The position numbers and the translations under genes were made by a program. The notes under the pieces are model-generated. The model was not told the origin of the DNA. It did not search any database and saw only the letters and a program-made list of their open reading frames with translations. This document shows positions 13,507 through 55,734 of a stretch of 64,000 nucleotides of DNA, one piece after another. Numbering within the stretch: position 1 is the stretch's first letter; every line of letters starts with the position of its first letter. Origin of the DNA: an uncultured Actinomycetes bacterium (GTDB lineage: Bacteria > Actinomycetota > CADDZG01 > WHSQ01); contig CALMBW010000018.1 in NCBI GenBank assembly GCA_937863385.1, positions 1 through 64,000 of the forward strand, read 5' to 3'.

Positions 13507-15147
13507 TCAGTTGCCGGCTGCTTCGCTGTGGCGGTCTTCAGGCGGCAGGCCCGTGAAGAGTGCACCCCCAGGCAGATATGGCAGCGGGTCGACGGGTGTC
13601 GTTTTGATCCTGATCTCGAAGTGAAGGTTGTCCCCGGTACAGCTTCCTGTGCACCCGACGGCTCCGAGCAGATCGCCTGCTTCTACCTTTTGTCCCCTGC
13701 GAACCCCGATCTTGGAGAGGTGCGCATAAAGGGAGGAGTAGCCATTGCTGTGCTCGATCACCACGACGTTCCCGTAGCCTCCCGGGTTGTAACCCGCGGT
13801 TACAACGGTCCCAGACGCGGCGGCTACCACGGGAGCACCGGCGAGACCATCGATGTCTATCCCTGTATGTAGCCGGTCATCGCGGGGGCCGAAGTAGGAG
13901 GTCACGGCACCGTCCGCCGGCCATGAGAAGACCACCGGCGAGCCGCGGTCGTCCGCCGATGAACCGAATTCCAGCCCGACGGTATCTAAACCCTGGCGGT
14001 AGTCGTCTGCATAGGTCTCAAGAGCGGCGAGGAGAGAATCGGTCATGACACTCGAAGCTGCCTGAGCTTGTTCACACTTGTAGCCGACCGGCACCCTTCG
14101 TTCCTCTCGAAGGTGAGGAAGCCGCTCGTACTTGAGAGGGAGTGGGTACTTGCAAGGCCAGAACTCTTCACGTTCGTCAGCCCTTACCAATCCAACCCTG
14201 ATCCTGTAGAACGTGCTGCCATCTGGGTTACGCCAGGGAACCGACGACTCTTCGATCGCTCGTAGGAAATCGGGTGTGTACTCCAGGGACTGGATGACAC
14301 TGTCCTTGGAATCGAGTTGGAACTCGGTGAATCCGGCCAACGACTCGATCCCGTCGCGCAAAGACTGGCCCGACTCGGCCAGCAACTCCAGACCCTCCCG
14401 TGCGAGCCGGTCGTTCGCAGCTAGGAAGGCGCGCGTTTCCTCGGGTTCGTCCCCAAGCCCTTCGAACACGCTATCTGCCGCTTCGATGGCTGCGGCGAAG
14501 GCATCTTTAGTCCTAAGGAACTCGGCCCCCGCTTGGGTCGAGTTGTCTAGCAGGGACTTCTGCTCGGAGGCGACCGAGGCAAACGCATCAGAGAGGGTCC
14601 CCAATGATTCGAGGATCGTAGCTATCTCCTCTTCTCTCCCTCCGAGCCCCCCTGCTAGTTCTTCGATCACCCGCGCCGTCTGTTCCGGAGACACGTCGAC
14701 CAGAACCTTGTCCAGCGACTGGAGGAGCGCCTGGAAATCGACAGGGAGGCTGGTTCGAGAGCGCTCGATCACATCACCGTCCTTGAGTGTCTCTTCGTTG
14801 TCGCTCAGAGGAGTCAGGTTAACGAACTGCTCCCCCACGGCACTCTTACTACGAACACTGGCCGAAACGTCGGACGGGATCCTGTCCGCCCACTCTGGCC
14901 CGATCACCAACTCGATATCAACGCCGTCGTCGTTCAACGTCATGTCGCCAACCTGGCCGACCAAGACGCCGCGGTAGGTCACCTCTTGATTGGTGAAAAC
15001 ACCACCGGAAGCCGCGAAATCCGCCGTCACCGTGTAGGGCTTGTTGGTGCCGACGCCGACGAGACTGAAGAACACCCAGGCAACCATCCCGATAGCCAAC
15101 ACACCTACGGTTATGAGGTTGATAAGGAGCTTGCGCTTGGGAGTCAT
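13507..15147 (-). CDS. MCE-family protein fused to a LytM/M23 peptidase-like domain (mceF position)
   Basis: The 546-residue protein has one N-terminal membrane helix (about 9-31), an MCE domain (about 37-115, VTYRGVLVGQVGDM) and long helical segments, then a C-terminal LytM/M23 domain (about 420-530: SYFGPRDDRLHTGIDI, YAHLS, GDNLHFEIR). MCE proteins form envelope-spanning lipid-transport channels; LytM domains bind or cut peptidoglycan. In the HxH metal/catalytic motif the first His is Asn (NLH), so the domain is probably non-catalytic or altered, as in EnvC-like activators. It is the last gene of the mce operon and overlaps the preceding one by four bases. I do not know of this fusion from characterised Mce systems. 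Confidence 0.85.
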   Translation of the reverse strand: MTPKRKLLINLITVGVLAIGMVAWVFFSLVGVGTNKPYTVTADFAASGGVFTNQEVTYRGVLVGQVGDMTLNDDGVDIELVIGPEWADRIPSDVSASVRSKSAVGEQFVNLTPLSDNEETLKDGDVIERSRTSLPVDFQALLQSLDKVLVDVSPEQTARVIEELAGGLGGREEEIATILESLGTLSDAFASVASEQKSLLDNSTQAGAEFLRTKDAFAAAIEAADSVFEGLGDEPEETRAFLAANDRLAREGLELLAESGQSLRDGIESLAGFTEFQLDSKDSVIQSLEYTPDFLRAIEESSVPWRNPDGSTFYRIRVGLVRADEREEFWPCKYPLPLKYERLPHLREERRVPVGYKCEQAQAASSVMTDSLLAALETYADDYRQGLDTVGLEFGSSADDRGSPVVFSWPADGAVTSYFGPRDDRLHTGIDIDGLAGAPVVAAASGTVVTAGYNPGGYGNVVVIEHSNGYSSLYAHLSKIGVRRGQKVEAGDLLGAVGCTGSCTGDNLHFEIRIKTTPVDPLPYLPGGALFTGLPPEDRHSEAAGN

Positions 15148-16157
15148 CGGCCACTCCCCTCCCCGGGGACGTCGCCCTTCTCACCGTTGGTGTTGCAGTT
15201 CGCTAGGGCTTCACAGATCACTGCTTGGACCTGGATGTAGTCACCTTTGCCGGCGCCCCCCGGGCCGCCCCCGAGACTCTTCGTGAACAACTCCAAGAAG
15301 GTCGCGAGCTGCCCGATGTCCGCACGAAGTTCTCCGTCCGCTCCTGCGATGGCCTGAAGGACGGGCCTGAGAGCACGGAACTGCCGGTCGATGGCGGATT
15401 CATGGTCCGAGAGGAAGCGGGAACTGACAGTGCCGAAGCGCCGAAGCGAGCTGAAGAGCAGCCGCAGTTCGTCTCCTTGATCGGCCAATAGGACATTGGC
15501 CTCCTCTAGGGAGTCCAGGAAGCTGTCTAGCGTGGCTGTATTCGCGGCAAGAGTCTCACCGGCGCCTGCCAGATGATCGATGGCTGAAGCGATGTCGAGT
15601 TTCCGGTCAGCCAGAACCGAGGTGAATCGCTCGAGTTCCTCGATCGTGTCACCGAACCGCTGCCCGCGCTCCTCGAGGATCAAGGCCTGAGCGTGCGTGA
15701 ACCGGTTGAGATCTTCTAACGCTCCGCTCCCTACGAATGATGAGAGATCGGACAGGAAGGTCTCGATGTCGACCCGGCGGTCGGTCTCTGACACTTCGAT
15801 CACCGTCCCGGTGGCGCCTATGAACGGTGGGCCATCCGACCCCGGGACGAGTTCGAGGAACTGCTCTCCCAGGAGGGAGGTTTGCCGGATGACGGCAGAA
15901 ACGCCATCAGCGGGAATGTCGGCCTTCGGATCGAGGGCCATCGTCACCTTGGCGAGCATCGTCCCGTCGCGTAGCTCGTATGCGATCTCGTTGATGATCC
16001 CGATCTCGACATCCAGCATCTGGACGTTGGCACCCTGAACTAGATCCCCTGCATCTTCGAAGTACGCAACAACCTCGTTACCGTCGGCACTTCCTGTCAG
16101 GGCGCAGCCGGAGAAGGAAAACCCAGCAACGATGGCCAGCGATAAGAAACGCTTCAT
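15144..16157 (-). CDS. MCE-family lipoprotein (mceE/LprN position)
   Basis: A 337-residue protein with a lipoprotein signal peptide (SFSGC, Cys at about 18) followed by an MCE domain (QMLDVEIGIINEIAY, SLLGEQFLELVPG) and extended helical segments. The fifth gene of actinobacterial mce operons is usually a lipoprotein (LprN-like), and this one is fifth of six, so it is the likely counterpart. It overlaps its neighbours on both sides by four bases, showing tight co-translation. Confidence 0.88.
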   Translation of the reverse strand: MKRFLSLAIVAGFSFSGCALTGSADGNEVVAYFEDAGDLVQGANVQMLDVEIGIINEIAYELRDGTMLAKVTMALDPKADIPADGVSAVIRQTSLLGEQFLELVPGSDGPPFIGATGTVIEVSETDRRVDIETFLSDLSSFVGSGALEDLNRFTHAQALILEERGQRFGDTIEELERFTSVLADRKLDIASAIDHLAGAGETLAANTATLDSFLDSLEEANVLLADQGDELRLLFSSLRRFGTVSSRFLSDHESAIDRQFRALRPVLQAIAGADGELRADIGQLATFLELFTKSLGGGPGGAGKGDYIQVQAVICEALANCNTNGEKGDVPGEGSGR

Positions 16158-17443
16158 GGCGCGTCCCCCGCGACGCCCTCAACCAACCAGCGACCGATGA
16201 AGCCGAGGAAGGCGTCCTCTCCAACCTCATCGGCGATGGCCTGAAGTTTCTCAACCGTTTGAGCATCGACCGTCGTTGCACCGGGAAGGACCACGCAGTC
16301 CCTGATCAGGATGTCGATAAGGAACGAGAGGTCGTCGTCGTACGGGTCTGGGATGTAACTCAGTGCAGTCTCGAGGATGTCCGTGTAGTCCGCCAAAGGC
16401 GTGACCGCCGTAACAGTGTCCGCAACGTTCTGCAGGCGCTCGCAACTGTTCGTATCTCTCGAATCGATCCGGTAGTTGTACTCCGAGCCCGCAGTACCAG
16501 GTGCAGCCTGGCGACCCGTGTAGGCGTAAAGCCCCCTGCCGGAAGCATCGGTCGCGCCGAGCGTTTGAGCGATCACGTTGCTCCATTGGATGCCTCGTTC
16601 GAGATCATCCTGGTTTCGAAGCAGCACCCGCAACACTTTGGACAACCTCTCGAAGGAGCTACCGATCTGCTCACCGGAGCTGTTCAATACCTGAGCCGTC
16701 TGATCGCTCAGGAAGGTCAGATTCTCGATCGTTCCCTCGAGATTGTCCTGGTCGGCCAGGAGAGCTTCGGCGACCAACTGGAAGCGCTCGTTGACGATCG
16801 CTATCTCGCTCGATCGATTCGCTAGAGACAAGAAGAGCCGGTCGAGGTTCTGGATCAACCCTGTGAGGTTCTGATCGGAATCGGCGAGGTTCTCGAGTAC
16901 GGTCGCCCCCCCCTCAAGGGTCCCGGCAAGCTCATCGCTACGCCCCGCGAATGCCGTATCCAAACTGTCGATCAAACGTGCCAGAGATCCTTGTTCTCGA
17001 TCGTTGCGGGGCTCGAGCGCCTCGAGCAACCCTTGCAACTGAGTCAACACATCGTCCAGTTCTGCGGGGATGGATGTGCGGCCCAGTGGGATGTGGTCCC
17101 CCGCTGCAAGGGTCGCTCCACCCGAGTAGGCCGGGAAGAACTGCACGTAGCGGTCCGAGATGACGGTGACGGGGATCACGGCAAGGTCGGCATCGGCGGG
17201 GATCTTGGTCCCCTCTTGGATCTCCATGGTCAAGCGAACCCCCTCGGGTCGGGGCTCGACACCGGTGATGTGACCGACCTCGATCCCTCTAACCATGACC
17301 CGGCCTCCCTTAAAGAGGTTCGGGGCCTGATCGATATCGGCCGTCACGGTGTACGTGGCCGGTCCTTTGCCCGCCACGGAGTATGCAACGAGCACGCCGC
17401 CCAACACGGCAACGGTTGCGATGAGACCCGTCACCCTCTTCAT
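16154..17443 (-). CDS. MCE-family protein (mceD position)
   Basis: A 429-residue protein with one N-terminal membrane helix and an MCE domain (about 32-110, MVRGIEVGHITGVEP and SDRYVQFFP). A long alpha-helical region (about 125-290) follows, and the final part contains two cysteines in a less conserved tail. By analogy with mycobacterial Mce proteins it is a subunit of a hexameric lipid-import tube. It is fourth in the operon with overlaps at both ends. The substrate is unknown. Confidence 0.88.
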   Translation of the reverse strand: MKRVTGLIATVAVLGGVLVAYSVAGKGPATYTVTADIDQAPNLFKGGRVMVRGIEVGHITGVEPRPEGVRLTMEIQEGTKIPADADLAVIPVTVISDRYVQFFPAYSGGATLAAGDHIPLGRTSIPAELDDVLTQLQGLLEALEPRNDREQGSLARLIDSLDTAFAGRSDELAGTLEGGATVLENLADSDQNLTGLIQNLDRLFLSLANRSSEIAIVNERFQLVAEALLADQDNLEGTIENLTFLSDQTAQVLNSSGEQIGSSFERLSKVLRVLLRNQDDLERGIQWSNVIAQTLGATDASGRGLYAYTGRQAAPGTAGSEYNYRIDSRDTNSCERLQNVADTVTAVTPLADYTDILETALSYIPDPYDDDLSFLIDILIRDCVVLPGATTVDAQTVEKLQAIADEVGEDAFLGFIGRWLVEGVAGDAP

Positions 17444-18537
17444 GGGAGCACCCTCGCCGGCATCGGGGTCGGCTGTATCCCATGAACCGGAAGGCCGGGG
17501 TTCTGTGGCGAGCTATACGGAACACAAGTGTCCTCACTGGTCACCGCACACACATGTCCTTCGATGAAACGACCGATAGCACCCGGGCGTGCGAAGAGCG
17601 ATTGGGCGTCACCGAGATTCTGGATCGCGATCTCTAAGGACTTCAGCTCCGACTGCGCGGCCGCCAAGAGCGAGTTGAAGTCGGCGAAACCAAGCTCGAT
17701 GTCACCCTTCGCTACCTGGATCAGCGTTCCCAGGTTTCGGCCGAGGTCCTCCGTCGCGGCTAACAAACCGGTTATCGAACTGCGGTTCTCGGCGAGGGTG
17801 GCCAATACCTCAGCGGAGCGTCCGAGGATGCCTTCTAGGTCTTCGCCGCTATCCCCAAGGGTCTTGGTCACATCCTCTGTGTGTTCGAGCAATCGCGATA
17901 TCTCGGTGCTCTTGGAACCCAGCACATCGCCGAGATCGTCTAGATTCACCAATGCATCGCGCAACTCATCGGCGGAACGTCCGAAAGTGCCGGCCAAGAC
18001 ATTGAGCAACTGACGAAGAGCCTTCTTGTCGATCTCCTCGAGCACCGCTGTTCCTTCGGTCGCGGCCTGATAGATGTCGAACGGGATGCGCGTCTGATCC
18101 ATGGGGATGACGTCACCGTTCTCGAGGAAACCCTCTCCCTGCGCTATCGGATCCTCGCCTGCAGCTCGGGCCGCCAGGAGAGAACGTGGCATCTGAAGGT
18201 CGATGAACTTCTGCCCGAGGAGAGTTTTGAGTTTGACCTCTAGCCGGGTAGACCGAGGCAGGATGATGTCGTTCGCGATCTCCATCTTGACGCGTGCAGC
18301 GGTCTCGGTCAGCTCAACACCGGTAACCTGGCCCACCTTCACGCCGGCCACCCGGACCTCGTTGCCGGAACGCAGTCCTGCCGCGTCCTCAAGGTCGGCG
18401 TAGATGCTGTAAACGCCCCGAAGTCCCGGAACCTTGTTGATCGAGAACGCCGCCCCAAGACCGGCTGCGATCAGAGTGATCGAAACGAGCCCGACGGCGA
18501 TAGGAGAGCGCTCGCGGAACGACTTCACGGCATCCAC
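17440..18537 (-). CDS. MCE-family protein (mceC position)
   Basis: A 365-residue protein with an N-terminal helix (about 14-34), an MCE domain (VRVAGVKVGQVTGVEL, KTLLGQKFIDL) and a long helical region with repeated heptad-like spacing (about 150-320). It ends in a short Pro-rich tail (GLPVHGIQPTP). It overlaps the mceB-position gene by 13 bases and the mceD-position gene by four. The role is inferred from the family: one of six subunits of an envelope lipid transporter. Confidence 0.88.
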   Translation of the reverse strand: MDAVKSFRERSPIAVGLVSITLIAAGLGAAFSINKVPGLRGVYSIYADLEDAAGLRSGNEVRVAGVKVGQVTGVELTETAARVKMEIANDIILPRSTRLEVKLKTLLGQKFIDLQMPRSLLAARAAGEDPIAQGEGFLENGDVIPMDQTRIPFDIYQAATEGTAVLEEIDKKALRQLLNVLAGTFGRSADELRDALVNLDDLGDVLGSKSTEISRLLEHTEDVTKTLGDSGEDLEGILGRSAEVLATLAENRSSITGLLAATEDLGRNLGTLIQVAKGDIELGFADFNSLLAAAQSELKSLEIAIQNLGDAQSLFARPGAIGRFIEGHVCAVTSEDTCVPYSSPQNPGLPVHGIQPTPMPARVLP

Positions 18538-19520
18538 CGCCGTCCACAGGTTCCAGAATCGTCCCTACAAACGTCGATCAGGTGGATGTTTCCCCACTGA
18601 CCATAGTTGCTGACCCTCTTGACACCGATCGTGAAGCCGGGTAGCGCCTTGATCGCCTTTCGAAGCTGAGCACGCTTGTCGTTAACGGCGTCGAAGATCG
18701 TAGCCAGATCGGCCAGCTCGGCCTGGATGTCGGAGTCCCGTCTTTCGATGATCCTGCCGAAGCGTGTGGCCGCGTTGTCGAGCGTTTGAAGAGCGACCGC
18801 TAGGTCGTCTTTGCTTGCGGCGAGATCGCCCATGAATGAATTGAGCGCACCGAGGGTCGTTTGGAGCTGCTGGTCCCTTCCGGCTAGATCGGCCGTGACG
18901 ATGTTAAGGCTATCGAGCATCGTAGCGATCTGCTCGTCCTTCGTGGCAAGTGTGGCAGCTAGTTCGGAGATGTTCGCCAAGAAACCTTCGACGTCGGCAC
19001 TCCTACCCTTCAGTGCCTGAACGAGTTCCCGCGAGACGAGATTGATATCGGCCGGATCGGTGGAACGGATAAGTGGACGTAACCCGTTGAATAAAGCACT
19101 CAGGTCGAATGCCGGCGAAGTTCGATCAAGCGGGATGATGTCGCCCTCTTCCATCAGGCCCGTAGACGGCACATCGTCGTTCGCCACCAGCGTGACCATC
19201 CGTTGACCGACGAGGTTCCGGAAGCGGATCTCGGCATCGAGGTTGTCTGGAAGCTCGACCTCCTCATGGATCGTCATCTTTACAACCGCTACTCCGTCCT
19301 GGATCTCGATCGTGGAAACGCGACCGACCGTGACTCCGGCGGCTTTAACGACATCTCCGTTCAGCACGCCCGTCGCGTCGGTGAATTCGGCCGTGATCTC
19401 GTATGGGCTCTTGAAGAACTGCAGGTTGCCGATGATCGCTGCCAACCAAGTTGTCACGATGACCGTGACGACGGTAAAGATGCCGAGTTTGACCGCGGTC
19501 CAGCGGATGCTCCCGATCAT
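18525..19520 (-). CDS. MCE-family protein (mceB position)
   Basis: A 331-residue protein with a membrane helix (about 10-32) and an MCE domain (KAAGVTVGRVSTIEI, RNLVGQRMVTLV). Helical segments follow, and a Cys-containing C-terminus ends in a basic RRWMP tail. The gene order, size and single-helix layout match the second subunit of mce operons. It overlaps the upstream subunit gene by four bases. Confidence 0.88.
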   Translation of the reverse strand: MIGSIRWTAVKLGIFTVVTVIVTTWLAAIIGNLQFFKSPYEITAEFTDATGVLNGDVVKAAGVTVGRVSTIEIQDGVAVVKMTIHEEVELPDNLDAEIRFRNLVGQRMVTLVANDDVPSTGLMEEGDIIPLDRTSPAFDLSALFNGLRPLIRSTDPADINLVSRELVQALKGRSADVEGFLANISELAATLATKDEQIATMLDSLNIVTADLAGRDQQLQTTLGALNSFMGDLAASKDDLAVALQTLDNAATRFGRIIERRDSDIQAELADLATIFDAVNDKRAQLRKAIKALPGFTIGVKRVSNYGQWGNIHLIDVCRDDSGTCGRRWMP

Positions 19521-20746
19521 CGGCTACCACCCGGATCGATCACGGGGCCAAGGACGATACGAGCCAGATCCGAAACCTTGGCGTCGCCGGCAAGTGCATC
19601 GATGAGGGCGTCCAGAGCGCCGGCCGAGGATGGCGTACCCCGGAAGTTCGGGTCTCCGGGCTCGTTCGAATCCGGTGACTGCCCATCCCGGTACATCCCT
19701 CGGTTCTCTAACCCAGGGGGTTGGTAGACCTGCCAACACGTCATGTTCTGTTCGTATAGTCCGCCGCACGGCTGACTCAAGCCCGAGTTCCAGACGGTGG
19801 TGAATGCTTGGAGATTCACGATCAGATCGCGCAGATCTTGGTCCCGATCTGCGACCAACTCGGTCAGGGTTGCTCCGTCCTCCACGAGAACCGACAAGTC
19901 ACCTTCGATGTCTTCTTGGAATCGGGCAAGTTCATCGAAGAAGACTGGAACGGACTGAAGGTTAGAGCGCAGTTCGGGTGCGGCCCCCACAAGAGCGCGG
20001 TTCGCAGAGTCAAGCGAGTTCATGAATGAAAGTAGGGAGTTGTCATTGTCATCGAGCCATGCCGAGAACTCGGCGAGTTGCCGGAGGGCAAGATCGAATT
20101 CGGCCGAACGCGAGTTCACAGCGCGAAGCGCCACGATCCCCCGGTCGATGGCTGTAGCAGCATCTTCCTCTTGGCCCGAGAATCCCTCGGCCAACGTCCG
20201 GAAAACCTCGGAGAGATCATCGAGGGGGATCTGAGAGAGCAGGTCGGACCCCAGCTCGAGAGCGCGTTCGAGCTCCAGAGGCTCGATCGTGCGCTCGTCT
20301 GGGATCTCGCTGCCTGCGGCAAGGAAGGGACCATCGTTGTTTTCGGGGGGGATCAGTTCGATCCACTTCTGACCGAAGACCGTCTTGCTACGGATCTCGG
20401 CCGTAGATGATTCGGGGATCTCTTGGCTTTCGTCGAGCCGCATCTCGATGACGGCCTTCCCGTCCTCGATAGCCACGTCCCCGATGTAACCGACCAACAC
20501 GCCGCGGATCTTGACGTCGCCGCCCTCCGGCAATTGCTGCCCAACGCCGGGAGCCGAAAAAACGGCGCGCACGGGCGTCCCTCCTTGGAACCCTCCCTGG
20601 AGGAAGGTCCACGTTAGCCATATCGAGCCAGCGAACAATGCGATGGCAAGGACGCCCAACAGGGCGTGACGGCCGCGCGTACTCAAGTGTCCAACTCCGA
20701 TACGAAGATCAGCGCTTCCCCCCCCGGAACTGTCCGAGATGTCCAT
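19517..20746 (-). CDS. MCE-family protein (mceA position, first of operon)
   Basis: This subunit carries a cytoplasmic N-terminal tail, one membrane helix, an MCE domain (VKIRGVLVGYIGDVAIEDG, KTVFGQKWIEL) and long helices. The frame opens at a GTG at 20785, but ATG at 20746 is preferred because an AAGAGG ribosome-binding site lies just ahead of it; that gives 409 residues. It is the first gene of the mce unit. The yrbE-type permease genes and the mkl/mceG ATPase, normally upstream or elsewhere, are not in this window. Confidence 0.85.
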   Translation of the reverse strand: MDISDSSGGGSADLRIGVGHLSTRGRHALLGVLAIALFAGSIWLTWTFLQGGFQGGTPVRAVFSAPGVGQQLPEGGDVKIRGVLVGYIGDVAIEDGKAVIEMRLDESQEIPESSTAEIRSKTVFGQKWIELIPPENNDGPFLAAGSEIPDERTIEPLELERALELGSDLLSQIPLDDLSEVFRTLAEGFSGQEEDAATAIDRGIVALRAVNSRSAEFDLALRQLAEFSAWLDDNDNSLLSFMNSLDSANRALVGAAPELRSNLQSVPVFFDELARFQEDIEGDLSVLVEDGATLTELVADRDQDLRDLIVNLQAFTTVWNSGLSQPCGGLYEQNMTCWQVYQPPGLENRGMYRDGQSPDSNEPGDPNFRGTPSSAGALDALIDALAGDAKVSDLARIVLGPVIDPGGSR

Positions 20747-20806
20747 CTCATCCTCTTGCACATGGGTTTCACCGTCTATAGACACTCTTGCCTAGTCCCG
20801 CATATA

Positions 20807-26107: not shown

Positions 26108-27229
26108 CTAAGAGAGCAGTGCATCGACGAACGCCTTAGGTTCGAATGGCTCGAGATCGTCGATCCCCTCGCCCACCCCGATCAGCTTCACGGGCAACCC
26201 CAGTGTGTGTTCGATCGCTAGAACGATGCCGCCCTTGGCGCTCCCGTCTAGTTTCGTAAGCACGACTCCCGTAACTCCCGATGCTTCGGAGAACTCTTTA
26301 GCCTGCACCAAACCGTTCTGGCCTGCCGTGGCGTCGATGACCAGCAAGGCCTCATGGACCTTGCCTTCCTTCTCGATGACCCGCCTGATCTTCGACAACT
26401 CATCCATGAGCGGGGTCTTGGTGTGCAAGCGTCCAGCGGTATCGATCACCAACACATCGACGTCCCGAGCGGCTGCGAATCGATACGCATCGAACGCCAC
26501 CGCACCGGGATCGGCTCCGGGTTGATGCTTCACCATCTGGGATCCGGTTCGCTCCGCCCACACCGCCAATTGCTCATCTGCCGCAGCGCGGAAGGTGTCG
26601 GCGGCAGCGAGCGCCACCGAATGGCCGCGCTCGCGCAGATCGTTTGCAAGTTTTCCAATGGTCGTTGTCTTGCCGGTCCCATTGACCCCCACGATCATCC
26701 AAACCGTTGGCGATTCCGGAGCGAAGACGAGGTCGCGGTCGCGCTGGGCATCGAAGAGCTCGATCAGCTCGTCGGCCAACAATGCCTTTATCTCCTCGCC
26801 AGACGATGACCGCGACGCCTTGGCCTTGATGTCGGCCGTGATACGCGAAGCGATCTCCACTCCGATATCCGCCTGGATGAGCATCGCTTCGAGGTCGTCA
26901 AAGACGTCCTCATCGACCCCTCCGCTGAGCACATCGGCAAGGCGGTCGCTGAAGAACTTGCGGCTGCGGCTCAGACGATCCTTGAGACTGGGGCGGACAG
27001 ACGTCGATGGGGTGGTCGGGGGCTCTGATGGGACCGGCACTGCCTCGGTACGGTCCAAGATGGGTTCGGTTGAAAGGTCAGGAGCCTGAGTTGATCCCGG
27101 CGAGCGTTGGGGCCGGGACGGAGACGGCCGCTCTTTGCTCGGAACGCGTGTCTTGGAGCGACGGACGACAAGGAACGCGCCACCCACCACTACGACGAGA
27201 GCCAACAGGACGATCAGCGATTCAGGCAC
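26108..27229 (-). CDS. ftsY: Signal recognition particle receptor FtsY
   Basis: A 373-residue SRP receptor. An N-terminal membrane anchor (about 5-22) is followed by a charged linker, then the NG domain with GVNGTGKTTTIGKLA, DTAGRLH and TKLDGSAKGG. It docks the Ffh-ribosome complex at SecYEG. It follows smc and precedes ffh, the usual actinobacterial arrangement with two genes inserted. Confidence 0.96.
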   Translation of the reverse strand: MPESLIVLLALVVVVGGAFLVVRRSKTRVPSKERPSPSRPQRSPGSTQAPDLSTEPILDRTEAVPVPSEPPTTPSTSVRPSLKDRLSRSRKFFSDRLADVLSGGVDEDVFDDLEAMLIQADIGVEIASRITADIKAKASRSSSGEEIKALLADELIELFDAQRDRDLVFAPESPTVWMIVGVNGTGKTTTIGKLANDLRERGHSVALAAADTFRAAADEQLAVWAERTGSQMVKHQPGADPGAVAFDAYRFAAARDVDVLVIDTAGRLHTKTPLMDELSKIRRVIEKEGKVHEALLVIDATAGQNGLVQAKEFSEASGVTGVVLTKLDGSAKGGIVLAIEHTLGLPVKLIGVGEGIDDLEPFEPKAFVDALLS

Positions 27230-27269: not shown

Positions 27270-30200
27270 CTAGGCTAGAACCTCTTGCATCTTGCGAGCG
27301 ACAACCTTCGAAACGCCATCCTTACCCATGCTCACTCCATAAAGCACGTCCCCGGCCTCCATGGTTCGCTTCTGGTGCGTAACGATCAGGATCTGAGCAC
27401 TCTCCTCTAGTTCATCCACCAACTGGATGAAGCGCTGGAGATTGAAATCGTCCAATGCAGCTTCGACCTCGTCCAGCAGGTAGAAGGGCGAGGGGCGGGA
27501 GCGAAAGATCGAAAAGAGGAAGGCGAGCGCCACCAGTGACCTCTCGCCACCCGACAGCAGGGACAGTTTGCGAACGTTCTTACCTGGCGGGCGGGCTTCG
27601 ATCTCGATACCGGTGTTAAGCATGTCGCCCGGGTTAGTGAGTTTCATGCGACCGTCTCCACCTGGGAAAAGGCGCTTGAAAACCTCCGAGAACTCCTGGG
27701 CGACATCTTCGTACGCCTGACTGAAGACTTCGACGATCGTTCGGTCGACCTCATCGACCACCTTCATCAGGTCTCGCTTACTGGACCGCAGATCCTCCAT
27801 CTGCTCGACGAGGAACGTTTCGCGCTCGGCCAACTCCGCATACTCCTGCGCGGCCCGAGGGTTGATGATCCCGATACGCTTCATCTGTCGATCCAGCTTC
27901 TCGACGCGCATCCTTACCTCGGGAAACTCTTGCTCGCTGAAAGGCTCCAAGGTTCCCAGAGCGTCGCGGGAAAGTCCCCACTCCTCCATCGCTCTCTCGC
28001 AGAGGGAATCGATCCGGGCACGAACCTCAGCACGCTTGACTTCGGCGTCATTTCGCCTTCGTACGAGATCGTCCAGAGAATCCTTCAGCTCCCGCTCGCG
28101 GGTCCTCAAGCCGGTTACCTGGCGCTCACCTTCAGCAGCCGACTCGCGGGCCGCCAAAGCACGCCGTTCGGAATCGATAGCCCAGCCCTCCGCCTGGGTG
28201 GCAGCCTCGATCGAGGCCTCGGCCACGGCGCGGGCGCGGGTCCTCTGCGCTTCGAGATTGGAACGGAGGTCGGCAAGGCCTTCGAGTGCACTGCGCGCGT
28301 CTGCTATCCCGCCCTCGGCTTCCTCCAAACGAAGCTGCGCCGCAAGCGAGCGTTCCTCGGCCCCCCTCGCCTCAAGCTCTGCATCCCGCATCTGTGCGGC
28401 CGCTTCCGCGGAAGCGGCCCTTGCTCTCGCAACTCCGGCTTCTGCAGCCTCTCGCTCAGCTTGCTTCTCCTGGAGGGTTGCCCGGTGCTGCGGCAACTGG
28501 GCGCGCTCTTCCGCCGCTGACGTCTCCGCGTACGCCAACTGTTCACGAGAACGCGAGATCTCTTCATCGAGGGCCGACAACTCGATCTCACGTTGTTCAT
28601 GACCGCGCCTGGCTCCACCGAGTCGTTCGGCCGCCCCATTCATGAGGGCATCTAGCTTGCGAAGTTCCTCGTCGAGTCTGGCAACCTCGTGCCACCGTTG
28701 TTCCACTCGCTGCTCGGCTGCTTCGAGGATCGAGCGCGCTTGCTCTTCCCCTGCACCGGCAAGCTGTGCTGCAGAGCGAGCCTGACGTGCGGGTTCGGCG
28801 AGGCGGGACCGGGCAACCTCGATGTCGGCCAGGACCTCGAGGACCTCGTCGAGCGTGCTGGCCCGGGCTTCGGCTGCGGCTCGCTGCGCATGACTCACCC
28901 CAAGCTGCTGACGCAGACGCCGCACCTCTTCGCGGGCCGCATCGTGAGCAACCTCCGCAATCGCGGCGGCCTCGGTTAGACGATCGAGATCTGCTTCGAT
29001 CGCCCGGATCTCATGTTCCGCCTTATCTAAAGCCGCTAGATCCGCACGCAACGACCCTTCAAGGACCTTGCGCTTCTCCATCACGGCGTTAACACGGGCC
29101 TCGATCGATCCGATCGTTGCGCGTCCGGCAGCCTCGCTGCCTTCCGCACGAACCAACGCCTGAGCAGCCGAAGTCTCTAGAGCTCTGGCCTCTGCGAGCG
29201 CCCGCTCCGCTTCGTCAAGCGCCGCGCGTGCCTGATCGGCCTTCTGTCTCAGAGAATCTGCCTTCGCTCTTGCTACGCGAGCCCCTTCCGAGAGTGCTGC
29301 GGTTTCCGAGGAGAAACGCTCGCGTTCATTCTCGAGCAAGCGGATCCGCTCGCGGTATCCCTCTTCTGTCTCTGCGGCAAGGCGGGCCTCGATCGTGGCA
29401 GCCCGCTCGGAGGCAAGCCGCCCGAGTCCGGCCAGTCGATCCGCCCCACGGGCTATCCGGTGGGCCAGCTCGCGAGCCGTTTCTGCGTCACCGACCAAGC
29501 GCTCCCTTTCAGTGGAAGCCGTCGACAGCCGGGCGCGGACGCTACGAAGTTCGTCATCGAGCAGGTCGATCCGATGTTGCTCTTCTTGTGGGTCGCCCGC
29601 TGTACGGGGATCGCTCAAGGTCCGGATGTCGTGTGCAACCAGTCGCTGGCGAAGCTCGCGGTGCTCTTCTGACAGCTCCGTGAACGCTTCGGCCGCCGTC
29701 GCTTGACGCTTGAGCGGGCGGATGGAGCGGCGTAGCTCGGCTAACACATCGTTGAGACGGGTCAGGTTGTCTTCGACCCGCTCGATCTTCTTCAAGGCAC
29801 GGTCCTTGCGGCGTCTGAATTTGCCTACCTGAGCTGCCTCTTCGATGAATACCCTGCGATCCTCAGGCTTAGCCTGGAGAACGGCATCTAGATTCCCCTG
29901 GCCGACGATCGTGTGCATACTTCGGCCCACGCCCGTATCGCTAAGGAGTTCCTGGATATCGAGGAGACGGCACGGTGCTCCGTTGATGCGGTATTCGGAA
30001 GCGCCGGTTCGGTCCGCGTACCGGGCGATCTCGACCTCGTTGAGGTCGAGTGGGAGGACCCTTGCAGTGTTGTCCAACGTAAGGCGAACCTCGGCCATCG
30101 GTTGCTGAGGCCGTCCCTGAGAACCGGCAAAGATCACATCTTCCATCGACGCGCCGCGCAGGCTCGACGGAGCTTGGGACCCAAGTACCCAAGCCAAGGC

Positions 30201-30326
30201 ATCCGAGATGTTCGATTTGCCCGAGCCATTCGGGCCGACGATCACGTTTACCCCGGAAACGAATTCCAAGATGGTGGGGTCGGCGAACGACTTGAAGCCC
30301 GCGACCCGCAGACTCTTTACGTACAT
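27270..30326 (-). CDS. smc: Chromosome segregation SMC protein, apparently without hinge domain
   Basis: The 1018-residue protein has an SMC N-terminal ATPase (LRVAGFKSF, Walker A GPNGSGKSN at about 32-40) and C-terminal half with the signature LSLLSGGERSLVALAF and Walker B PFYLLDEVEAALDD. Between them runs continuous coiled coil (about 160-850). No conserved globular hinge segment is recognisable, and the protein is about 150 residues shorter than typical SMCs, roughly a hinge's length. The ATG at 30326 directly precedes the conserved N-terminus. It sits in the canonical rnc-mutM-smc-ftsY order. The scpAB partners are not in the window. Confidence 0.9.
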   Translation of the reverse strand: MYVKSLRVAGFKSFADPTILEFVSGVNVIVGPNGSGKSNISDALAWVLGSQAPSSLRGASMEDVIFAGSQGRPQQPMAEVRLTLDNTARVLPLDLNEVEIARYADRTGASEYRINGAPCRLLDIQELLSDTGVGRSMHTIVGQGNLDAVLQAKPEDRRVFIEEAAQVGKFRRRKDRALKKIERVEDNLTRLNDVLAELRRSIRPLKRQATAAEAFTELSEEHRELRQRLVAHDIRTLSDPRTAGDPQEEQHRIDLLDDELRSVRARLSTASTERERLVGDAETARELAHRIARGADRLAGLGRLASERAATIEARLAAETEEGYRERIRLLENERERFSSETAALSEGARVARAKADSLRQKADQARAALDEAERALAEARALETSAAQALVRAEGSEAAGRATIGSIEARVNAVMEKRKVLEGSLRADLAALDKAEHEIRAIEADLDRLTEAAAIAEVAHDAAREEVRRLRQQLGVSHAQRAAAEARASTLDEVLEVLADIEVARSRLAEPARQARSAAQLAGAGEEQARSILEAAEQRVEQRWHEVARLDEELRKLDALMNGAAERLGGARRGHEQREIELSALDEEISRSREQLAYAETSAAEERAQLPQHRATLQEKQAEREAAEAGVARARAASAEAAAQMRDAELEARGAEERSLAAQLRLEEAEGGIADARSALEGLADLRSNLEAQRTRARAVAEASIEAATQAEGWAIDSERRALAARESAAEGERQVTGLRTRERELKDSLDDLVRRRNDAEVKRAEVRARIDSLCERAMEEWGLSRDALGTLEPFSEQEFPEVRMRVEKLDRQMKRIGIINPRAAQEYAELAERETFLVEQMEDLRSSKRDLMKVVDEVDRTIVEVFSQAYEDVAQEFSEVFKRLFPGGDGRMKLTNPGDMLNTGIEIEARPPGKNVRKLSLLSGGERSLVALAFLFSIFRSRPSPFYLLDEVEAALDDFNLQRFIQLVDELEESAQILIVTHQKRTMEAGDVLYGVSMGKDGVSKVVARKMQEVLA

Positions 30327-30480
30327 AAGCAATCACCATAGCTGCGACAGAGGTGACCAACGCGTCTATCCGAGGGCCTGAGTCGTCCTTTCCCATAGGC
30401 ACTTTCGCGAACCTAAGGCGGGTATGGTCGGACGGTGCCGCCGACCGCGGCAGACCCACAGGACTATCCAGGAGGTACCG

Positions 30481-30934: not shown

Positions 30935-31213
30935 CTACTTCTTTATCTTGAAACTCTTGTCGTTCTTCGGAGGCTCTCTGTCCACCTGCACCGCATCGAC
31001 CTTTGCACCGTTAGGGCCCGCCCGGCAGAGACCGACGACACGGTAAACCTCGTCGCGAGGCCCTTCGATGACGGCCTCTATCCGGCCGTCAGACAGGTCC
31101 TTCACCCAGCCGACGACACCTTGTTCGTCCGCCTTCTCCTTGATCGATTCCTTGAATCCCTTCCCCTGAACGTCTCCGTTCACGAAGACATGGACCCGGG
31201 TCCTATCCTCCAA
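30935..31213 (-). CDS. Acylphosphatase-like protein with altered catalytic residues
   Basis: The 92-residue protein has the acylphosphatase fold motifs VQGKGFKES and VVGWVKDLSDG. In active enzymes these read VQGVGFR and GWVxN, with Arg and Asn doing the chemistry. Here Arg is Lys and Asn is Asp, so activity is doubtful. It occupies the usual acyP place between smc and mutM, suggesting descent from a true acylphosphatase. The neighbouring mutM-like gene has also lost catalytic residues. Confidence 0.85.
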   Translation of the reverse strand: MEDRTRVHVFVNGDVQGKGFKESIKEKADEQGVVGWVKDLSDGRIEAVIEGPRDEVYRVVGLCRAGPNGAKVDAVQVDREPPKNDKSFKIKK

Positions 31214-31231: not shown

Positions 31232-32080
31232 TCATGACTGGCACTGTGGGCAGAAATAGGTCGTCATGTCGTCGAACTCTTCCTTCACGATCTCGTGCCT
31301 GCACCGCCTGCAAGATTCACCCTCTCGTTGGTACACCTTCAATTCCTCTTCGAACGACCCCGACTCACCATGCAGGTCCGTGTACTCACCTTCGTCGTCA
31401 CTTGCCGGGGCTACACCACGCGCCTTGATCGCGTCTTGCAACGTTTCGATCAGGGCGCGGTAGAGCCTGCGGACGTCCTGCGAGGAGAGCTTGCTGCTGA
31501 GGCGGTCCGCTCGGAGCCCGGACGCGAACAGGATCTCGTCAGAGTAGATGTCGCCCAGACCAACGATGAAAGAGTCGTCCATCAACAGCTTCTTCATCGG
31601 AGTGTTGCGGCTAGCCAGCAGCTCAGAGAATCGGGGCCATGCGATCTGCTCGCCTAGGGGATCCATGAGGAACTCTTTTCCGTCCCCCTTCACCTCATCG
31701 CTCGGGGCGATATAGATCTCGCCGGTGCGATTGGGGTCGACGAATCGAAGTTGGCCCCCGATCGTGAACCCGATGATCAAGTGGGTGTGTGGAACCACGT
31801 CGTCTGACGCCGAGGTTTTGTGCAGCTGACCCGAGGCACCCAGATCGATAAGCATGACGTGGCCGTTGTCGAGCTCGAAGTGCAAACGCATACCGACCCG
31901 GTCTACCCGCTCTACCTTGACCCCCTCGAGAAGATCCTGGATCTCCTTCCGGCGGCCGTGACGGGGAAACACCTTCATCGCGTTGCTGCCCGCCCGCACA
32001 TCGACGTCTTTGATCCGCCGGCCGACGATCTCTTTCTCCAGATCCCTTCGGATCACCTCGACCTCAACTAGCGCGGGCAT
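31232..32080 (-). CDS. MutM/Fpg-like DNA glycosylase homologue, probably inactive
   Basis: The 282-residue protein aligns throughout with formamidopyrimidine-DNA glycosylase: an N-terminal MPALVEVE, the H2TH region (IVGLGDIYSDEILFASG) and a C-terminal Cys4 zinc finger (CRRC...CPQCQ). The start at 32080 is chosen for the conserved Met-Pro. Key residues are changed: the glutamate after Pro is Ala, the helix lysine in RRxKY is Met (DRVGMR) and the zinc-finger arginine is Met (DDMTTYFC). It may therefore bind DNA without base-excision activity, or act differently. It occupies the canonical mutM locus between rnc and smc. Confidence 0.85.
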   Translation of the reverse strand: MPALVEVEVIRRDLEKEIVGRRIKDVDVRAGSNAMKVFPRHGRRKEIQDLLEGVKVERVDRVGMRLHFELDNGHVMLIDLGASGQLHKTSASDDVVPHTHLIIGFTIGGQLRFVDPNRTGEIYIAPSDEVKGDGKEFLMDPLGEQIAWPRFSELLASRNTPMKKLLMDDSFIVGLGDIYSDEILFASGLRADRLSSKLSSQDVRRLYRALIETLQDAIKARGVAPASDDEGEYTDLHGESGSFEEELKVYQREGESCRRCRHEIVKEEFDDMTTYFCPQCQS

Positions 32081-32843
32081 CCGTTCCACCCCCCTCACTC
32101 GAAGCCGGATATTCCTCTTCCATCCGGTCGAGGGCCTCTCGAGCGGCGTTGTACTCGGCTTCTTTCTTGCTGCGGCCCGTACCCGATCCCATCAATCTCT
32201 CCTCGACATAAACATCAGCGGTGAACCGCTTGTCGTGGTCTGGCCCACTTGACGACACCCGGTAACGAGGCTGGTCGCCTGCCTCCCTGACCGCGACTTC
32301 CTGAAGGGCGGTCTTTGCGTCGTAACGGTCACCACGAGCGATCGAGTGCTGGATACGTTCCCTGAACAAGGGTGTAAGGGCATCGCGGACGGCGTCGATC
32401 CCCCGGTCGATATACACAGCACCCACCACTGCTTCGAAGGTGTTGGCTAGAAGCGAAGGCTTTGAGCGCCCGCCCGAAGCCTCTTCGCCCTTACCGAGAA
32501 GGATGTGGTCGCCGAGCCCCAGATCAGATGCTAGATGGGCCAGGGCGTGAGTATTGACGACCGAAGCGCGCAAGCGAGCCATCTCGCCCTCCGCGAGATC
32601 GGGATTGTCGCGATAGATCAAGTCCGTAACGACGGCCTCCAAGATGGCATCACCCAAGAATTCAAGTCTTTCGTTATTGGCCGAGACCTCCGGCTGCTCG
32701 AACGCGAACGACCTATGCGTTAGAGCTAGCTCGTAGATCGGGCCCCCCTCGGATGGAACACCGAGCGATCCAAGTGCTGACGTGGCTCTACTCCGTTTCG
32801 ACTGCTGTACGGCCTGCGTAGTGACCACAGTTAGGGCACACAC
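32064..32843 (-). CDS. rnc: Ribonuclease III
   Basis: A 259-residue double-strand-specific RNase that processes rRNA precursors. The signature NERLEFLGDAIL and a second ENFEAVV-like site (NTFEAVVGAVYID) supply the metal ligands; a C-terminal dsRBD (about 165-235) follows. All in-frame GTG starts (32843, 32828) lie inside rpmF, so the first 15-20 residues overlap that gene and the exact start is unsettled. The long processing stem around 23S is a likely substrate. Confidence 0.92.
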   Translation of the reverse strand: MCALTVVTTQAVQQSKRSRATSALGSLGVPSEGGPIYELALTHRSFAFEQPEVSANNERLEFLGDAILEAVVTDLIYRDNPDLAEGEMARLRASVVNTHALAHLASDLGLGDHILLGKGEEASGGRSKPSLLANTFEAVVGAVYIDRGIDAVRDALTPLFRERIQHSIARGDRYDAKTALQEVAVREAGDQPRYRVSSSGPDHDKRFTADVYVEERLMGSGTGRSKKEAEYNAAREALDRMEEEYPASSEGGGTDARAS

Positions 32844-39527: not shown

Positions 39528-40574
39528 ATGAACGACGGGCAAGCTGTCCCCGAGCAAGAGCAGGGGCCATATCGTCTCGGCCCCCTGCTGGCCACGTCGT
39601 GGCGGTTCTACTCAGCCCGATTCTCCGGCTTGTTCGGGCTTTTCGTCCTGGTGAACCTGCCGTTCGCTGCACTAGCTCTGGTTCGGATCTCGGATATCCC
39701 CGAACGAACCTTGATCCTCATCAACACGGTGATCTTCATAGTTCAGACCATCTGGGTCAGCCTCGCGGTGGGGGTTGCCGCAAACATGCTCGAAGGGTAC
39801 CTGCGCGACGAGATCGTCGGTCCGTTCGAAGGCTGGAAGCGGCTTCGTCAGAACATGCTTCCCGCTCTCGCCGCCGGGATGATTTCTTCCTTCCTGGCCA
39901 TATTCACCGGTCAACTCTTCCCACCCCTGTTAGCGCTCGTCTACGGCCCTCCGATGTTGATGCAGGTGATCGCAGTGGAGGGGGCACGCTCTTTGACCGA
40001 TGCCTGGCGGAAGACCAAAACCCTCATGGTCGGCCATTGGATGCGCGTCATCTCCTACCTCATGACGGCTGTGTTGGGTGCCTTCGTCATCTTCAACCTC
40101 GCCGCCTCACTCGTCATCAGCATCACCGGAGATGTGTCTGAAGATGCCGAGCAGGCCATGCTGACAGCACTTATCGCAGGTATCGCTGCCTTCACGTATC
40201 CGTTCATCGCAACCGTTCAGTACGTCGCTTACGCTGACATCGCTGCGCTCGACGGCGTGACACATCCGGCTTCCTCTCGTCGCAAGACGCTCAGCGGCGA
40301 TACGGACGACGGGACGGAAGTGATCGAGACGACCGAGGACATGCCGGAAGTCGTCACTCTTTACGATGCCCTGGGGGTGCGCCCAACCGCAACCCAGAAG
40401 CAGATCCGCAGGGCTTACGACACTCGGATGAAGCTGACGGACCCCGCCCGCCACGAGCAGCTTGACGCCGACGCGGTTGCCGACATGGAGCGCAAGCGAT
40501 CGGAGGCGCAGCAGGCATTCGAAACACTCTCAGACCCAGTAGCCCGGGCCGAGTATGACGAGCAACTCCGCTAA
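39528..40574 (+). CDS. Membrane protein with C-terminal J-like domain lacking HPD
   Basis: The 348-residue protein has an N-terminal membrane region with about five to six helices (residues ~30-250) and a C-terminal J-like domain (about 277-348). The J helix II and III pattern is recognisable (LYDALGVRPTATQKQIRRAY, QQAFETLSDPVARAEYDEQL). The HPD tripeptide required to stimulate DnaK is missing; LTDPARHEQ stands there. Any chaperone link is therefore doubtful. The membrane part resembles no family I can name. Confidence 0.8.
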   Translation: MNDGQAVPEQEQGPYRLGPLLATSWRFYSARFSGLFGLFVLVNLPFAALALVRISDIPERTLILINTVIFIVQTIWVSLAVGVAANMLEGYLRDEIVGPFEGWKRLRQNMLPALAAGMISSFLAIFTGQLFPPLLALVYGPPMLMQVIAVEGARSLTDAWRKTKTLMVGHWMRVISYLMTAVLGAFVIFNLAASLVISITGDVSEDAEQAMLTALIAGIAAFTYPFIATVQYVAYADIAALDGVTHPASSRRKTLSGDTDDGTEVIETTEDMPEVVTLYDALGVRPTATQKQIRRAYDTRMKLTDPARHEQLDADAVADMERKRSEAQQAFETLSDPVARAEYDEQLR

Positions 40575-53669: not shown

Positions 53670-54599
53670 ATGAGCGAGGAAACCAGAACTAGCACTCGGC
53701 TAGACCGGGCTATAGCAACCTTCACGTTGCTTGCCCTGATCGGCGCGTCAGCATCGATGCTCCTAGGTCTCACCACAGCAGGAGCCCAAGAACCTCCCCC
53801 TCCCACCGTGACGGTTACCGACCCCCTGGAAGGCGAAACCACCTTCTCACCGGCAGTGATCGATGTGCCCCTCAACGGTCAGCTGGAGTTCGTGCTCGCC
53901 AGCGGGGACGCCAGTGGCACCTCGATCGATTCAACCGATCCTCTGTTCGCGTTCGACGGGTTCTGTTTCTTATCGGCTGCCAACCCGTCCTGCACCGTGA
54001 CGGTTATCGACCAGAACGCCGCGGGCCAGGTCGAATACGCCGAAACGGCCGACACCAGCACGACCGGCCTCATCAACGTGACGACCGGAACCCCAAGCCC
54101 CTCCTCAAGCGCCAGCCCCAGCACCTCGTCCAGTCCCAGCGCTTCTCCCTCCGCGTCCCCGACGGGGTCACCAACCGCTTCTCCCTCTCCTTCCACATCG
54201 CCCACGGCAGACCCAAGCACATCACCGACGGCTTCACCGAGCGCGAGCCCTTCACCCAGCACTTCCCCTTCCCCGCAGCCAACGGTCCACCCTCGGACAT
54301 TGACCATCGAACTACGTGGCGCTCTGATCGTCAGCGGGACGCTGTCCTCTGATGATCCGGGCTGCTACAGGGGAGCTCCGGTGGACGTGCAGAAGCGGGT
54401 GGTGAAGAAACGCAACGGCAAGAAGGTCGTGCGGTGGAAGAAGATCACCCGCGACATCACAAACTTCGATGGCGAGTACGAAGCAGCTATCGCGCCCAAG
54501 AAGGGCCGCTACCGAACGCGGTCTATCAGATACTCGGATGACACCGGCATGCAGATCTGTGCGTTCGTCGTGTCCGCGGTGCGGCGCTACAGACCTTAG
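53670..54599 (+). CDS. Secreted protein with Ser/Pro-rich repeat linker
   Basis: A 309-residue exported protein: signal helix (about 17-37), an N-terminal domain with VPLNGQLEFVLASG, a ~60-residue linker of SPS/SPT/SAS repeats (about 140-205), and a C-terminal basic beta-domain (TIELRGALIVSGTL, KKGRYRTRSIRYSDD) ending in two cysteines region (MQICAF). The gene has a close paralogue downstream with the same layout, so they likely arose by duplication. It may be a cell-wall-anchored or surface protein. Confidence 0.75.
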   Translation: MSEETRTSTRLDRAIATFTLLALIGASASMLLGLTTAGAQEPPPPTVTVTDPLEGETTFSPAVIDVPLNGQLEFVLASGDASGTSIDSTDPLFAFDGFCFLSAANPSCTVTVIDQNAAGQVEYAETADTSTTGLINVTTGTPSPSSSASPSTSSSPSASPSASPTGSPTASPSPSTSPTADPSTSPTASPSASPSPSTSPSPQPTVHPRTLTIELRGALIVSGTLSSDDPGCYRGAPVDVQKRVVKKRNGKKVVRWKKITRDITNFDGEYEAAIAPKKGRYRTRSIRYSDDTGMQICAFVVSAVRRYRP

Positions 54600-54747
54600 A
54601 CCCCGGCGAAAAGATCCACCTCAGGTAAGGCGTGCTTCGTCCGATTTCGGTAGGTAATCGCCGGGTCTGTCCTGATGGTCTTGACCGCGAACCTCTGATA
54701 GACCTCATAGTCACTTAGACCTATCCCTTACTAACCGTGGAGAGTTG

Positions 54748-55734
54748 ATGCCTCGAGCCAGGGCGACAGATGGCAGGTTCGACCGCACCATAGCGGTCTT
54801 CCTGCTTGTAGCCATGGCGTCGGCTATCACCTACATGTTCTTCTGGTGGGCGCCCTCCGCTCGTTCCGGGCCGGCAGCAACCAAGACGATCACCATCTCC
54901 AGCTTGCTCGCCCTGAGCCCACTCACGGAAACCATGACCACTGCCGATACGCTAAACGTCACCAACGAACATCCGCTGATAGCCCAAACGCTGGTTCTGA
55001 CCCCTGCGAACGGTGGGTCGTCCACGGATGTGTCGGTTCCAGCTGCTCAAACCACTACTGCGCCTGCGCTATCGGCGGGAACGTACTCCTACGCCTGCAA
55101 CCCCGCCTGCACCAACGGGCCCGGCTCCCTCACCGTTACGGCACTACAAACCGCGTCTCCAACCCCCAGCCCGAGCCCGACCGAAGAATGTCCCCTCCCG
55201 GTTCCCCTGCCCGCTGTTTGCGAGGAGCCGCCACCCTCATCACCCTCTGCCTCGCCAAGCGCCACCGCTTCACCGAGTGCCTCGGCGTCTCCCAGCGCGT
55301 CTCCCACCGCTTCGGCGAGTCCCACGGCGAGTCCCAGTCCTTCTGCCTCACCTTCTACATCTCCCTCCCCATCTCCATCGACAAGTCCCTCTACCTCTCC
55401 GACGCCGAGCCCTAGTCCAACGATCGGACCTCCCACAGATCGCCGCGTGACGCTCAATCTGCGTAGGCACCTGAAGGCTCGAGGCAAGATCACGGCCGAG
55501 CAGGCCGCCTCCACGGATTGCTATTCCAACGTGACGGTGGATATCCAGCGAAAGACCAAGAGCGGATGGAGAACCATCAAGTTCGCTACGACGAACGACG
55601 AAGGGTCGTACAAGACCAAGCTGAAGGATCGCAAAGGCAAGTACCGGGCGCTCGTAAACGAGCTAGTCGTCAATGACGTCCTCGTCTGCTCTAGTGACGT
55701 TTCACCTATCAGCCGCCACAGACACCGCAAGTAA
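54748..55734 (+). CDS. Secreted Ser/Pro-rich protein, paralogue of the upstream gene
   Basis: A 328-residue protein sharing layout with the gene ending at 54599: signal helix (about 15-36), N-terminal domain with a CNPACTNGPG motif, a long SPS/TPS/SAS linker (about 140-230), and a C-terminal domain (VTLNLRRHLKARGKI, KGKYRALVNEL). Start at 54748 rather than the TTG three bases before. Convergent with the 5S gene; a shared hairpin lies between. Confidence 0.75.
   Translation: MPRARATDGRFDRTIAVFLLVAMASAITYMFFWWAPSARSGPAATKTITISSLLALSPLTETMTTADTLNVTNEHPLIAQTLVLTPANGGSSTDVSVPAAQTTTAPALSAGTYSYACNPACTNGPGSLTVTALQTASPTPSPSPTEECPLPVPLPAVCEEPPPSSPSASPSATASPSASASPSASPTASASPTASPSPSASPSTSPSPSPSTSPSTSPTPSPSPTIGPPTDRRVTLNLRRHLKARGKITAEQAASTDCYSNVTVDIQRKTKSGWRTIKFATTNDEGSYKTKLKDRKGKYRALVNELVVNDVLVCSSDVSPISRHRHRK

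Follow-up and report, generated by a model that had tools for sequence, protein, structure and literature searches.

The hinge is regarded as both the dimerisation site and a gate of SMC rings. Can an SMC protein serve a bacterium without one? The question is raised by the smc gene at 27270–30326 on the minus strand of the 64,000-nucleotide stretch of DNA analysed here (the window), in whose product (1018 aa from the ATG) the initial annotation recognised two intact ATPase halves and no hinge. Its reading frame reaches a TTG at 30332 and contains neither stop nor frameshift (27270–30332); we prefer the ATG at 30326, which is residue 3 of the ORF and agrees with the coordinates given earlier. 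In the numbering of the 1020-aa ORF, and with all features on the minus strand, the N-terminal ATPase lobe (residues 3–170, 29823–30326) carries Walker A (GPNGSGKS, 30236–30213), SLRG and the Q-loop, and the C-terminal lobe (residues 801–1020, 27273–27932) carries the signature LSGGE (27557–27543), Walker B (FYLLDEVEAALDD, 27485–27447) and the H-loop. Every motif of the split ABC head is intact, as had been claimed for both halves, and the Pfam match to SMC_N spans residues 4–1008. Between the lobes lie an N-terminal coiled-coil arm (residues 171–477, 28902–29822), gap-free over ten species and helical in the AF2 model, a C-terminal arm delimited by alignment and AF2 (residues 529–800, 27933–28748), and between these the apex (residues 478–528, 28749–28901), the site of a hinge of ~140 aa in relatives.

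Profile searches gave no sign of a hinge. A PF06470 search of the protein found nothing at E≤10, and the source genome likewise gave no match, so that Pfam detects no free-standing hinge either. The protein scores 768.8 bits with NCBIfam TIGR02168 (SMC_prok_B; equivalog cut-off 567.35), the best stretch stopping at profile position 515, and its second half matches the sister model SMC_prok_A from position 680; the hinge stretch is thus skipped. Custom hinge HMMs, composed of same-class and other actinobacterial hinges and run without filters, matched no SMC of the source family, and a profile including the same-class hinges found no separate hinge protein in the source genome. Same-class relatives, themselves rows of these models, score 71–90 bits with the broad hinge HMM and 173–216 bits with the same-class one. 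The negative results with PF06470 and the unfiltered clade-specific HMMs lead us to reject a hidden or divergent hinge, and the lack of CXXC at the apex a zinc hook. The hinge that the initial annotation could not recognise in the coiled coil is therefore missing also by Pfam, by custom HMM and genome-wide, and the separate hinge-like protein it suggested looking for was not encountered with either PF06470 or the clade-specific profile.

The missing length corresponds to the missing domain. Between fixed head landmarks, the head-to-head span is 660–662 aa in ten species of the source family vs 799–806 aa in hinged same-class relatives, a difference of 137–146 residues, close to the shortening of about 150 residues estimated earlier. 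Because this shortfall is about one hinge (~140 aa), it points to excision of the hinge with the arms kept, and at the level of sequence the event is a near-exact one, preserving the heads and full-length arms. The alignment of these ten species, from nine genera, is free of gaps over columns 161–799. Such fixed arm length without indels is in keeping with the particular lengths that the arms of Bacillus subtilis Smc need (PMC5344682). A hinge profile matched in 0 of 16 genomes of the source family, and the apex has identical length in all 13 genomes where it was read; since it is read through there at constant length, sequence missing from the middle of the gene through faulty assembly is excluded. 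Strong purifying selection is indicated by a dN/dS of 0.088 for the closest pair, and the apex is the fastest-evolving and least constrained segment (0.18–0.43), all these ratios being rough because dS is high (1 or more). Prolines are frequent at columns 505 and 513 of the apex alignment.

The source genome is 99.8% complete and holds this single SMC and no second SMC paralogue. The locus rnc-mutM-acyP-smc-ftsY is conserved within the source family; in the window, where all of these genes lie on the minus strand, ftsY is the conserved neighbour downstream of smc (26108–27229), acyP (acylphosphatase, 30935–31213) is the upstream neighbour, and mutM (Fpg, 31232–32098) and rnc (RNase III, 32064–32843) complete the order. 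The ScpA and ScpB genes adjoin each other away from smc, and ParB is encoded as well. Locus, phylogeny and single copy support orthology to bacterial Smc, so that the protein is best read as the housekeeping Smc, for which orthology predicts a chromosome-organising role.

Hinge loss is common to the whole source family, and a minimum of four further families of the phylum show it too; the initial annotation had foreseen neither its family-wide extent nor its repeated origin. Within the same class, 7 of the 8 genomes from two other families have a hinge match, the eighth being only 64% complete; same-class hinges are weak with Pfam (20–36 bits, one missed), so that the hinge is already divergent there. 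These divergent hinges, at loci L031–L037 of the same-class families f2 and f3, seem to be without the usual GG motif and possibly represent a stage before loss. In a sample of 296 genomes from the phylum, PF06470 was found at E≤10 in 264 and above its cut-off in 244. From the interleaving of named actinobacterial loci with the sampled families in the tree, we infer that this phylum is Actinomycetota. Among the genomes with no match, short hinge-less SMCs occur in four of the sampled families (f6, 736–780 aa; f26, 885–893 aa; f31, 778–816 aa; f35, 916 aa), and the length of the middle varies between hinge-less clades. As in hinged relatives, rnc and ftsY flank smc in f6, f31 and f35; of the two, only rnc was seen beside smc in f26. 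ParB is encoded in all four families, and ScpA and ScpB were found in f6, the one of the four searched for them. In a tree of head domains the five hinge-less families fall apart and five changes are needed; a single origin was rejected by the AU test (p=0.00013), a tree and test to be read with the long branches and skewed composition, above all of f6 and f26, in mind. The f6 proteins (L040, L053, L184–L191) are rich in Lys, Asn and Ile, are encoded in rnc-smc-ftsY loci and come close to a natural "core-only" SMC. Families f4 and f19 were rejected as hinge-less, as their SMCs look short yet carry hinges, and so was L203 (IMGVR_UViG_3300002501_000058), an IMG/VR contig filed as viral and probably cellular, which encodes a complete, ordinary bacterial-type hinged SMC. 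The SMCs of f51 and f36 (L198, L199), of ~1115 aa and on very long branches, have a middle domain that escapes both PF06470 and the custom hinge HMM, and were left out of the hinge-less count because they are full length.

How might such a chain fold? The AF2 monomer shows both head lobes, long helices at 249–476 and 529–784, and a helical apex at 478–528. The pLDDT is low at this apex, which was modelled from hinged relatives or from the single sequence, without members of the source family. As an isolated fragment the apex is predicted to be all-helical and almost continuous, with a helix break at 477–481. Neither prediction has strands at the apex, in line with the hinge-less middle originally proposed. 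By Foldseek, the model matches the complete Smc heads 5h68_B, 5xg3 and 3zgx (target TM 0.79–0.86) over both of its halves, which fits a hairpin closed in cis. Arms and heads are homologous to and colinear with those of ordinary Smc, so that the simplest fold is an antiparallel hairpin with a cis-closed head.

The initial annotation reasoned that dimerisation must use an interface other than the hinge, or a different partner; we consider the inference of another interface sound. As to what replaces the hinge, we lean slightly towards a Smc-ScpAB condensin of hairpin chains that make a weak contact between apices or arms instead. Each chain would fold back at about 478–528 into an antiparallel hairpin with the ATPase head closed in cis, and two chains would form a complex with ScpA and ScpB that is loaded by ParB. 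ATP-dependent head engagement and bridging by ScpA would hold the dimer, a putative weak helical contact, apex-to-apex or arm-to-arm, standing in for the hinge; the fast evolution and low pLDDT of the apex give no hint of a strongly conserved dimer interface. The complex would act on chromosomal DNA as Smc-ScpAB does, by folding or extruding it. In hinged SMCs, the hinge channel lets obstacles tethered by single strands through; with no such channel, obstacles of this kind would not be bypassed here. Precedents come from engineered proteins: growth is normal when a Rad50 zinc hook replaces the hinge of B. subtilis Smc (PMC5344682), and a Wadjet core stripped of its hinge and outer arm cleaves plasmid DNA if dimerised by a disulphide, cannot bypass obstacles, and loses its activity once the disulphide is opened (PMC12647877). 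Together they make a hinge-less Smc plausible and underlie our proposal of a Smc-ScpAB with a weak contact and no hinge-gated bypass; the loss of Wadjet activity on opening suggests that some closure would be required. More tentatively, and with our expectation leaning against it, at least five actinobacterial lineages may possess a condensin with no apical dimerisation domain, held together by heads, kleisin and arm contacts only. If so, hinge and channel would be dispensable for chromosome organisation in these lineages.

The variable, poorly conserved apex also suits a different arrangement, an open V whose hinge-less hairpins are joined solely by the heads (in the ATP sandwich) and by ScpA and ScpB, and which would act on DNA with no closed compartment between its arms. 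The apex being the least conserved segment of the protein, the lack of a recognisable dimerisation fold or CXXC there, the differing length of the middle among hinge-less clades and the retention of ScpA and ScpB all speak for it; why arms without a closing role should stay full-length and free of indels, however, is difficult to see, and the Wadjet core is inactive after loss of closure (PMC12647877), so that we find this arrangement doubtful. We regard as unlikely a domain-swapped antiparallel dimer of long, rod-like chains, whose heads would form in trans by pairing an N lobe with the C lobe contributed by the partner chain. Once the hinge is gone, two chains could make the same arm-arm contact between them, and the nearly continuous helix predicted for the isolated apex would allow it, but a turn is favoured by the helix break at 477–481 and by the frequent prolines close to the midpoint (columns 505 and 513), and the AF2 monomer closes its head in cis. 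Rad50/SbcC and RecN are existing hinge-less coiled-coil ATPases of such layout, and the protein might accordingly be a repair ATPase of their kind, away from chromosome organisation, or else the product of a decaying gene. Either is improbable given that it is the sole SMC of its genome and sits at the smc locus, scores far above the TIGR02168 cut-off and far below those of the Rad50 and RecN models, lacks CXXC, is under strong purifying selection and keeps company with ScpAB and ParB. That assembly collapse, a frameshift or a hidden divergent hinge created the picture is very improbable even with draft assemblies, as length and architecture recur in many independent genomes, the frame is undisturbed, the unfiltered clade-specific HMMs are negative and the apex is without strands.

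The source Smc shares head motifs, arms, locus and ScpA/ScpB/ParB with canonical bacterial Smc (TIGR02168, B. subtilis type), and differs from it in the absence of PF06470 and, with it, of the known dimer interface and the hinge channel. By descent its gene is an orthologue of smc, but the protein is not of the canonical type that bears a hinge. Rad50/SbcC likewise combines an SMC-like head and coiled coil with no SMC hinge, but has the CXXC zinc hook that is absent here. RecN is a hinge-free SMC-like ATPase too; the arms of the source Smc are much longer and the RecN model gives 31.1 bits (cut-off 407.85). No MukB family was among the Pfam matches of the protein at E≤10. The zinc-hook Smc (PMC5344682) and the Wadjet core (PMC12647877) are, like the source Smc, without the native hinge, and the one functions as Smc while the other cleaves DNA; both, however, were given a substitute dimerisation device, and none is recognisable in the source Smc.

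Hinge-less SMCs as such are not new, a point that the initial annotation had likewise not foreseen. In 2025, abundant hinge-less SMCs without CXXC were described from metagenomic genes of oceanic Actinobacteria, the authors leaving undecided whether they are paralogues or belong to an unrecognised lineage (PMC12153180); the literature that we searched held no further report. By that description they resemble the source Smc in head and coiled coil, in lacking hinge and CXXC and in having no regular SMC alongside, whereas as metagenomic genes they came without locus, partners or a defined lineage. What is added here is the genomic setting of a hinge-less Smc, its presence in one copy and its partners, the near-exact excision of the hinge with the arms kept, and several independent losses that include short-armed forms. 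The full-armed (~1020 aa) and short-armed (736–780 aa) proteins offer natural counterparts to the complexes engineered by hinge swap or reduction to the core. Since whole clades have lost the hinge more than once in nature and still keep heads, arms, ScpAB and ParB, what the hinge is for becomes a directly testable question.

Other features of the window were noted in passing. Two long ORFs on the plus strand (53670–54599 and 54745–55734) have no Pfam match and may not be genes. A 348-aa protein (39528–40574, plus strand) carries a C-terminal DnaJ domain at residues 278–344, and its first ~277 residues have no match in Pfam. On the minus strand, 13510–15147 encodes an MCE-family protein (MlaD and Mce4_CUP1) with a C-terminal M23 peptidase domain fused to it, and five more MCE genes (15147–20785) adjoin this fusion gene.
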